Source of the DNA: Paraburkholderia phytofirmans OLGA172
Lineage (GTDB): Bacteria; Pseudomonadota; Gammaproteobacteria; Burkholderiales; Burkholderiaceae
Length of the DNA stretch: 64,000 nucleotides
Direction: 5' to 3'
Assembly (NCBI RefSeq): GCF_001634365.1
Contig: NZ_CP014578.1
Span: forward strand, 3,968,001 to 4,032,000
Made by a program: the position numbers and the translations under genes
In this document: positions 15,690 through 18,149 of the stretch, in pieces
Layout of the letters: the number at the start of each line of letters is the position of its first letter
How positions within the stretch are numbered: the first letter of the stretch is position 1
The notes under the pieces: model-generated
Told to the model about the DNA's origin: nothing
Seen by the model: only the letters and a program-made list of their open reading frames with translations
The model's database searches: none

Positions 15690-16082
15690 TTAACGCTTCG
15701 AGAATTGCTTCCTGCGACGTGCCTTGTGGAAGCCGACCTTCTTACGTTCGACTTCACGAGCGTCACGCGTCACGAAGCCAGCCTTCGACAGTTCCGGCTT
15801 CAGCGTTGCGTCGTAGTCCATCAGTGCGCGGGTGATGCCGTGGCGAACCGCACCGGCTTGACCCGTTTCACCGCCACCCGTCACGTTGACTTTGATGTCG
15901 AACGTAACGCCGTGGTTCGTGAGTTCCAGCGGCTGACGCACGATCATCAGCGACGTTTCGCGCGAGAAGTAATCGGCGATAGGCTTGCCGTTCACAACGA
16001 TATCGCCCTTGCCTGCCTTGATGAAGACGCGTGCGACGGCGCTCTTGCGGCGGCCCGTGCCGTAATTCCAGTTACCGATCAT
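15690..16082 (-). CDS. rpsI: 30S ribosomal protein S9
   Basis: Ribosomal protein S9, 130 residues, the normal bacterial length. The N terminus [15 protein letters not shown] and the basic C-terminal tail ending RRRKQFSKR, which reaches to the P-site tRNA, are both present, as is the central [19 protein letters not shown] block. It follows rplM by 11 bases, the universal rplM-rpsI operon. Confidence 0.98.
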
Positions 16083-16522: not shown

Positions 16523-16783
16523 GATCGATCCAAAAAAATTGCTGCGCCCAATGTGTTTTTTCCTGCTTGTAGTGTGCGCATCGAGGCGCGTGCAGGCTCT
16601 CCCTGGTTCTTCCTCCGCGGGCGCGGATGCGGAAAAGCTCTGAATTATAAAGGAATTTGTCACGCCGAGTCAAAGCTTGCAGGGTTTCGGGCGACAAGTT
16701 GCGTGCGGCGACGGCCGGATAGCGCCCTTTGACGCTCCTCGTGACACGCCGAACGGCATCGGCTCGGGACCCAAGCGCGGACG

Positions 16784-16876
16784 AAAAAAAACCCGAACGA
16801 GCGGTTCGGGTTTAATCCACCAAAGGAGGAGGCGGAGGAGACAGCGGAGGTTGCAGAGTTGTTGCAACCGATGGGC
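16784..16876 (-). ncRNA. Candidate small RNA with anti-Shine-Dalgarno-like stretch
   Basis: No protein reading frame is seen here, but the minus strand holds a complete sRNA-like unit of about 90 bases. A promoter with a perfect TATAAT lies just upstream. The predicted transcript starts near 16872-16877, forms a perfect 7-bp hairpin (GGTTGCA / TGCAACC, 16849-16869) with a 7-base loop, then has an unpaired pyrimidine-rich stretch (16818-16848) containing CTCCTCC and CCTCCTCCTTT, complementary to Shine-Dalgarno sequences. It ends in an 8-bp stem (16791-16798 with 16804-16811) followed by eight T. It resembles in design the CCUCC-bearing Hfq-dependent sRNAs of alphaproteobacteria, but no specific family is recognised. 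Confidence 0.7.
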
Positions 16877-16879
16877 TCG

Positions 16880-16908
16880 ATTATAGGAGGCGGTCTTGTG
16901 CGACGCAA
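16880..16908 (-). promoter_or_regulatory. Sigma-70-type promoter of the candidate sRNA
   Basis: Minus strand TTGCGT (16903-16908), a spacer of exactly 17 bases, then a perfect TATAAT (16880-16885). Just upstream lies a perfect inverted repeat TTGCATT / AATGCAA (16915-16932) that could be an operator. Confidence 0.7.
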
Positions 16909-17206
16909 GAACATTTGCATTGCGAAATGCAATCCCATAATGTGGCACGGCGACTTGCAGACCGCAAAATAGCTAATTCTCTTTAAAATCAACCAACCAC
17001 GCCTTTTTAAGCCAATATATAAGCAGACATCAACTAGAGTAAAAACCCTAAACCGGTCAGGACTTACCCGAATCGGCGGAACATGCCGCACCGCAACACG
17101 CAAGCGGTCATTGGGCATAAGTTCCGGCGAAAGTCCCTTCGGGCGGACGCGCAAACACCGGGCTACAATGCGTTTTCGATATAAGCGCAGCGCGGTGGAG
17201 CACAGC

Positions 17207-17629
17207 ATGGAATGCAAAGTTAGCTGGATGGGGCAAGACGGGATGGCGTTTGCGGCCGAGACGGGCAGCGGCCATCTGGTCACGATGGACGGCGCGCCGG
17301 AAGGCGGCGGCCGCAATCTCGCGCCGCGTCCGATGGAAATGGTTCTGCTCGGCACGGGCGGCTGCACGGCGTACGACGTCGTGATGATCCTGAAGAAAAG
17401 CCGCCAGGAAATCGCCGGGTGCTCGGTGACGCTGAAGGCCGAACGCGCCAGCGAAGATCCGAAAGTGTTCACCAAGATCCACTTCCACTTCACCGTTACG
17501 GGCAAAAATCTGAACCCGGCTACGGTGGAACGCGCGATCAATTTGTCGCACGACAAATACTGTTCGGCGTCGATCATGATCGCGAAGACCGCTGAACTCA
17601 CGCACTCGTTCGATATCGTCGCGGGTTGA
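17207..17629 (+). CDS. OsmC/Ohr-family protein
   Basis: A 140-residue OsmC-like protein, a family of thiol peroxidases acting on organic hydroperoxides. The two cysteines of the active pair are C53 in LGTGGCTAYDVV and C119 in HDKYCSASIM, at the classic spacing. The NLAPRPMEMVLLG stretch before the first cysteine is typical of the YhfA-like branch. The ATG at 17207 is chosen because GTGGAG lies about 8 bases upstream and similarity starts at MECKVSW. It shares a bidirectional terminator with rnpB. Confidence 0.88.
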   Translation: MECKVSWMGQDGMAFAAETGSGHLVTMDGAPEGGGRNLAPRPMEMVLLGTGGCTAYDVVMILKKSRQEIAGCSVTLKAERASEDPKVFTKIHFHFTVTGKNLNPATVERAINLSHDKYCSASIMIAKTAELTHSFDIVAG

Positions 17630-17727: not shown

Positions 17728-17735
17728 GTTAGGTG

Positions 17736-18149
<414 letters not shown>

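Follow-up and report, generated by a model that had tools for sequence, protein, structure and literature searches.

Introduction

The closest described relatives of the locus studied here belong to Rfam family RF02278 (Betaproteobacteria toxic sRNA). In Burkholderia cenocepacia J2315, four RF02278 RNAs are transcribed, of which the 92-nt ncS27 is processed, attenuates growth when overexpressed and yields faster growth when silenced by an antisense construct (PMC5688073). The CU stretch of ncS27 is predicted to cover ribosome-binding sites, and levels of ncS03, ncS05 and ncS27 rise in biofilm and in glucose medium (PMC5688073 Table 2); the same study calls the regulator of double-hairpin RNA accumulation in B. 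cenocepacia unknown. The ncS27 gene sits between BCAL3348a and BCAL3349, and toxicity to E. coli upon cloning has been reported for relatives (PMC4603805). Four RF02278 RNAs are also reported from Herbaspirillum seropedicae (PMC7011215). S17 of Bordetella pertussis, which shares the CU-rich core of the family, undergoes RNase E processing and acts as a repressor of BP2158, matching the ribosome-binding region of this target; the S17 promoter has the −35 element TTGCAT, and repression of this promoter has been postulated (PMC11722255).

A second line of work concerns PhaR. PhbF, the PhaR of H. seropedicae, is a repressor that binds PHB granules, and the motif TG[N]TGC[N]3GCAA lies inside its footprint (PMC3206438). 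Cupriavidus necator PhaR is likewise sequestered by PHB granules (PMC12542648, PMC11332829), and a 2021 review describes the part of riboregulation in C. necator PHB formation as still undeciphered (PMC8401924). PhaR control of a small RNA gene with an anti-Shine–Dalgarno (anti-SD) motif is already known in S. meliloti, where PhaR (AniA) binds the gene of the CCUCC sRNA MmgR in vitro (EMSA) through a YGCRNYGCR palindrome and represses it (PMC12542648). MmgR, of the alphaproteobacterial alpha-r8 family, is associated with PHB as well as with carbon and nitrogen status, and acts on phasin expression (PMC12542648, PMC7143759). Here we describe an RF02278 gene of Paraburkholderia phytofirmans OLGA172 whose promoter contains a sequence resembling a PhaR/PhbF operator.

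Results

The window, the whole 64,000-nt stretch of DNA analysed, carries a match to the full RF02278 model (positions 1–64) on the minus strand at 16783..16843, scoring 66.8 bits where the gathering threshold is 50, with an E-value of 2.9e-11 (cmscan, 64-kb window). The locus also has the two hairpins of the family, the second being a terminator, and its CU-rich stretches. It is a real sRNA gene of an already named family. The first-pass annotation had proposed an Rfam search while recognising no named family; the search supplies one. The predicted transcript of about 92 nt spans 16784..16875 (−), its 5′ end being set by the −10 box together with the length of ncS27, 92 nt (PMC5688073 Table 1); this predicted length fits the ncS27 primary transcript. 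The locus resembles ncS27 and the other B. cenocepacia members ncS03, ncS05 and ncS62 in family and CU-rich stretches (PMC5688073, PMC4603805), is predicted to share with ncS27 the 92-nt length and a 5′ extension, and is probably the counterpart of ncS27 as the rplM-linked copy.

Other families fit less well. Anti-hemB (RF02837), a Burkholderia sRNA that likewise has a CU-rich loop and a terminator, reaches 27.0 bits, short of its gathering score of 49.5, and membership is rejected; the alphaproteobacterial model SorY scores 18.2 against 111. The four Rfam matches at E≤1 for the locus include no alpha-r8/MmgR family, for which Rfam may lack a model.

The predicted 92-nt RNA folds at −32.7 kcal/mol, compared with −17.0 ± 2.8 for shuffled sequences (z −5.57; 0 of 200 as good). 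Its minimum-energy structure consists of three minus-strand elements. The 5′ leader hairpin at 16849..16869, a perfect 7-bp stem (GGTTGCA/TGCAACC), lies outside the Rfam model. The middle hairpin at 16816..16836, present in both the fold and the RF02278 structure, pairs TCCGCC (16836–16831) with GGTGGA (16821–16816) and holds the anti-SD-like UCCUCCUUU in its loop. The intrinsic terminator at 16784..16813 has a 10-pair stem (16813–16789) and eight T (16791–16784). CTCCTCCGCCTCCTCCTTT runs from 16840 to 16822, and the 5′ CU-rich stretch UGUCUCCUCC occupies 16834..16843. The CU stretch had been described as unpaired, which holds for UGUCUCC on its 5′ side and for the loop UCCUCCUUU and fails for the paired TCCGCC. 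The other parts first read from the letters, namely TATAAT, TTGCGT at a 17-base spacing, the 7-bp 5′ hairpin and the terminator with eight T, are all found on the minus strand. Overlapping frames of 69, 92 and 405 aa cross the locus and look incidental by eye, and it contains no plausible reading frame.

We then compared the locus with its relatives. At E≤0.001, every one of the 58 genus-sample genomes and 128 of the 200 order-sample genomes have an RF02278 match, 75 of the latter above the family cut-off; the source genome has nine, five of them over the cut-off. As an observation on copy number, Noviherbaspirillum autotrophicum (G266, the genome of L051) has 16 matches, against the three to five reported for Burkholderia. 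All 44 aligned rplM-linked copies (43 plus the window) contain TCTCCTCC, the string used to select them, and 39 have a second CCTCC. The middle hairpin is nearly invariant. Several Paraburkholderia, Burkholderia and Pandoraea copies keep the 5′ stem with changed letters, but other copies have a weak hairpin or none, and the feature is not universal; the promoter of L019, L022, L064 and L070 lies directly at the core.

The terminator stem changes on both sides in four of six pairs. For the structure as a whole, the both-side-change cells (26 versus 9.2) and the covariation score (0.236 versus 0.150) exceed every one of 500 shuffles, which the count of pairs changed in this way does not (4 versus 3.7). 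Terminator-like sites in the 3-kb stretch scanned are no commoner than in shuffles (4 versus a mean of 3.9), and the terminator call thus rests on conservation rather than on the scan. Scanner counts by themselves would be compatible with a chance terminator and promoter and no gene. The Rfam E-value, the fold z-score, and the conservation and terminator covariation all speak against that reading, as do the published transcripts of homologues unless the copy here is dead, and we give it a negligible probability. The expectation of an sRNA gene with conserved CCUCC stretches is borne out, its homologues ncS27 and Bordetella S17 being transcribed and processed.

The sRNA gene lies upstream of rplM (L13, 16097..16522, minus; PF00572), which is followed by rpsI (S9, 15690..16082, minus; PF00380), and its divergent neighbour is an OsmC-like gene (17207..17629, plus; PF02566). 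About 860 nt past the sRNA, beyond the OsmC-like gene, lies RNase P RNA (RF00010, 294.5 bits, 17734–18147, minus). Of 80 named rplM loci, 43 carry the sRNA at most about 1.1 kb upstream and on the strand of rplM, and its stems and CU stretch are conserved there. This figure is a lower bound, as the pattern search gave no sRNA within about 1.1 kb in 37 loci, among which L017 and L036 have too little upstream DNA and L010 has its copy about 7.4 kb away. The linked copies range from Paraburkholderia to Herbaspirillum, Undibacterium, Polynucleobacter and a Rhodocyclaceae MAG, and two of Burkholderia (L024 and L025) lie 726 and 711 nt upstream of rplM. In B. cenocepacia J2315, BCAL3348 is presumably rplM. 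The linkage looks like a conserved position.

Such deep conservation on the same strand could point to a role chiefly in cis, or in co-regulation of rplM–rpsI, as a translation modulator tied to ribosome synthesis. The sRNA has its own terminator, however, and rplM has a separate, sigma-70-type promoter-like site (TTGACT-18-TATAAT, 16644..16673, minus). The P. fungorum copy is on the same contig as rplM yet about 7.4 kb upstream, and eight of the nine RF02278 matches of the source genome sit elsewhere. We therefore reject a role for rplM, do not retain the proposed tie to the ribosomal-protein operon, and consider action in cis or on rplM–rpsI very improbable.

The promoter at this locus contains the −10 box TATAAT (16880..16885, minus) and, across a 17-base spacer, a −35-like TTGCGT (16908–16903), which was missed by the promoter scanner because it fits the consensus −35 at only three of six positions. 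TTGCGT lies inside TTGCGTCGCACAA (16896..16908, minus), a predicted PhaR/PhbF operator by the published consensus sequences (PMC3206438, PMC12542648), with its left half forming the −35 element. TTGCGTCGCACAA is similar to TG[N]TGC[N]3GCAA read in reverse, departs from the exact H. seropedicae consensus by a single base, and holds the YGCRNYGCR core with at least two mismatches in the arms of the S. meliloti consensus. Taken alone, the site is not significant, as chance alone would give 0.75 occurrences of the operator pattern in the window. The window has no match to the S. meliloti PhaR consensus at ≤1 mismatch, the best, with two, being at a distal conserved element TTTCGCAATGCAAA (16914..16927, minus). 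The core of this element, CGCAATGCA, is 17 bp from the proximal core, and TTTCGCAATGCAAA is possibly a second PhaR-like site or the site of another factor. It is kept as TTTCGCAATG, TTTCGTAATG or TTTCGTAGTG in Burkholderia and Ralstonia copies that have no proximal operator.

The source genome encodes PhaR (PF07879, E 2.1e-30) and has 10 phasin matches. Among its RF02278 copies, the window's own (L003) and L002 have the operator and L001 has the partial form TTGCGTCGCATCGG, while the accessory copies L004–L007 (two on contig C5 and two more) have a different, AGGGTTTATACT-like promoter and no operator. Contig C5 (22,868 bases), with L004 and L005, also carries by eye a ParA-like ORF, a replication-protein-like ORF and an IS66-type transposase. 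The region upstream of the genome's own phaR (L270) has no TTGCN3GCA match. Genome-wide searches gave 23 sites for TTGCNNNGCACAA, many inside ORFs, versus six for a reversed-pattern control, and 21 for TTGNTGCNNNGCANCA versus 13; neither of these simple patterns is specific enough to delimit a regulon. Filtering the TTGNTGCNNNGCANCA sites by eye to an RNY centre leaves six, namely an sRNA copy (L343), two phasins (L345 and L348) and three others.

Across the family, the operator pattern is enriched. In the 150 nt upstream of the RF02278 copies, TGC-RNY-GCA-NMA occurs for 41 of 56 from PhaR-encoding genomes and for one of 32 from PhaR-less genomes, the RNY centre having been picked after the sets had been seen and the published consensus found later. 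At least one match is present in 17 of 19 PhaR-encoding families versus 1 of 11 PhaR-less families; 15 of the 56 copies lack the pattern. These 88 promoters comprise 56 from 54 of the 94 genomes that have PhaR as well as RF02278, and 32 from 26 of the 34 with RF02278 only (L327 excluded). The background of 11 in 1608 windows is mostly coding, so that the upstream region of rplM itself is the fairer control. There, the looser TGCN3GCANMA (either strand, 150 nt) matches 0 of 80, against 32 of 43 rplM-linked named sRNA copies (shuffle mean 1.3). The same looser pattern matches 42 of 56 PhaR-encoding copies (shuffle mean 1.7) and 4 of 32 PhaR-less copies (0.4). It also precedes 29 of 36 phasin genes (1.9; 3 of 39 loci near contig ends dropped) and 18 of 31 phaR genes (1.8; 30 loci from the 136 genomes with a PhaR match, plus the source genome), both classes known elsewhere as PhaR targets. 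The S. meliloti PhaR consensus, taken from print and allowed ≤1 mismatch, matches 36 of the 56 (shuffle mean 1.0, largest 4), 1 of the 32, 6 of the 1608 background windows and 1 of 80 rplM upstream regions.

In rplM-linked relatives, the operator takes the forms TTGCATTGCACAA, TTGCAATGCACAA, TTGCGTTGCACCA and similar, with the left half as the −35. Exactly 17 bases separate the left half from TANNNT in 28 of 30 rplM-linked promoters with a sense-strand match; L043 has 16, and L038 has its first site further up and a second that fits, which brings the count to 29. The sense-strand operator is absent from the other 13 of 43 (L020, L024, L025, L027–L029, L032–L034, L063, L076, L081 and L084), which include copies of Burkholderia sensu stricto (L020, L024, L025), Ralstonia (L028, L029) and Cupriavidus (L032–L034). 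Other copies of some such genomes have the element, in Burkholderia (L304, L313), R. pickettii (L320) and Cupriavidus (L322, L323), and C. gilardii (L308) has TTGCGTCGCACAA 154 nt upstream, beyond the scanned stretch. It was not found in L305, L314, L330 and several extra Oxalobacteraceae copies. Judged by these relatives rather than by the J2315 sequence, ncS27 differs from the locus here, since the rplM-linked copies of Burkholderia sensu stricto have no proximal operator; ncS27, the best studied copy, may thus not be under PhaR.

In a rival reading, the element of an otherwise sound RF02278 gene would belong to another regulator, or be an extended −35 favoured by RNA polymerase, with no role for PhaR. 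The TTGC half does serve as the −35 at fixed spacing, the element is missing from some copies in PhaR-encoding genomes, and agreement of the rplM-linked set with the S. meliloti consensus is poor (6 of 43 at ≤1 mismatch; shuffle mean 1.0, largest 5). The same element, however, stands upstream of phasin genes and phaR and is absent from the rplM control, and it resembles both the footprinted PhbF site and the S. meliloti consensus. In other families (for example L255 and L261), it lies by eye just upstream of an apparently separate −35, which argues that it is not merely a −35 variant. We consider an origin of the element independent of PhaR unlikely, although it retains some weight, in part for the clade structure described below.

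Among the 200 genomes of the order sample, 94 have RF02278 and PhaR, 34 RF02278 only, 42 PhaR only and 30 neither. The two are no tight pair, and presence alone is no argument for PhaR control. The contrast between promoters of PhaR-encoding and PhaR-less genomes does argue for it, with the caveat that it follows clades. TATTAGA is found in 28 of 32 PhaR-less promoters versus 1 of 56 PhaR-encoding copies, and the PhaR-less genomes are mostly a set of families sharing it, so that the contrast may reflect few evolutionary events. The only RNY match without PhaR (L229) comes from an 85% complete genome (G180), and PhaR is present in both other sampled genomes of its genus. TATTAGA (L211–L240, L135, L147) mostly lies within a ATATTAGATAATTCTAAT-like inverted repeat over the −10.

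Discussion

The RNA itself and its likely mode of targeting are already known; new here is the promoter with its PhaR/PhbF-like operator. Our searches of the open-licence PMC literature turned up no mention of PhaR controlling RF02278, and PhaR is not named in the accessible parts of PMC5688073, PMC7011215, PMC4603805 and PMC11722255. S3 of PMC5688073 may present the same promoter element, with no regulator named in the accessible part of that source.

We think it likely that PhaR blocks the promoter of this ncS27-type RF02278 sRNA until PHB is stored, and that the sRNA lowers translation of uptake and catabolism genes through CCUCC. PhaR (PhbF) would be bound at TTGCGTCGCACAA over the −35 and spacer, blocking the promoter. 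Upon carbon excess, PHB granules would form and take up PhaR, the operator would be vacated, and the sRNA would be transcribed and in part processed. Its CCUCC stretches, with Hfq in the Bordetella relative, would then cover the Shine–Dalgarno sites of uptake and catabolism mRNAs, whose translation would fall, damping uptake, catabolism and growth. In this scheme, PhaR binding and the direction of control are predicted from the operator, and the physiological role at the locus remains putative. Processing and the ribosome-binding-site steps are supported by work on relatives; such blocking has been shown for one target of a relative, is predicted for others and would apply here by analogy. The rise of ncS03, ncS05 and ncS27 in glucose medium and biofilm, and the S17 promoter being thought derepressed, are in line with this mechanism (PMC5688073, PMC11722255).

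Translation modulation through CCUCC, suggested in the first-pass annotation, agrees with these relatives, S17 repressing a target with a matching ribosome-binding site; control of rplM is not supported. The comparison drawn there with alphaproteobacterial CCUCC sRNAs fits well, because the MmgR gene is under PhaR, the regulator proposed here. The two RNAs share an anti-SD motif; MmgR is alphaproteobacterial and acts on phasin expression, and the locus has no Rfam match to such a family.

The S17 −35, TTGCAT, is like the left half of some predicted operators; S17 lies by coq7 rather than rplM and does not impair exponential growth of E. coli in LB (PMC11722255). Two copies in our sample, L125 and L127, have TTGCATCGCACAA 117–135 nt upstream of RF02278; their neighbours, by eye Coq7-like, glycosyltransferase-like or OsmC-like, resemble the Bordetella S17 locus.

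In a broader reading, which we hold to be evenly balanced, RF02278 sRNAs would form the RNA arm of a PHB-storage regulon across PhaR-encoding Burkholderiales, paralleling PhaR–MmgR; PhaR would be the postulated repressor of S17, and PhaR-less lineages would use the TATTAGA promoter. The operator predicted before this widespread, putatively ribosome-binding-site-blocking sRNA family names one candidate regulator. As this repressor senses stored carbon in the form of the bioplastic PHB, the predicted PhaR site could explain when the RNA is made.
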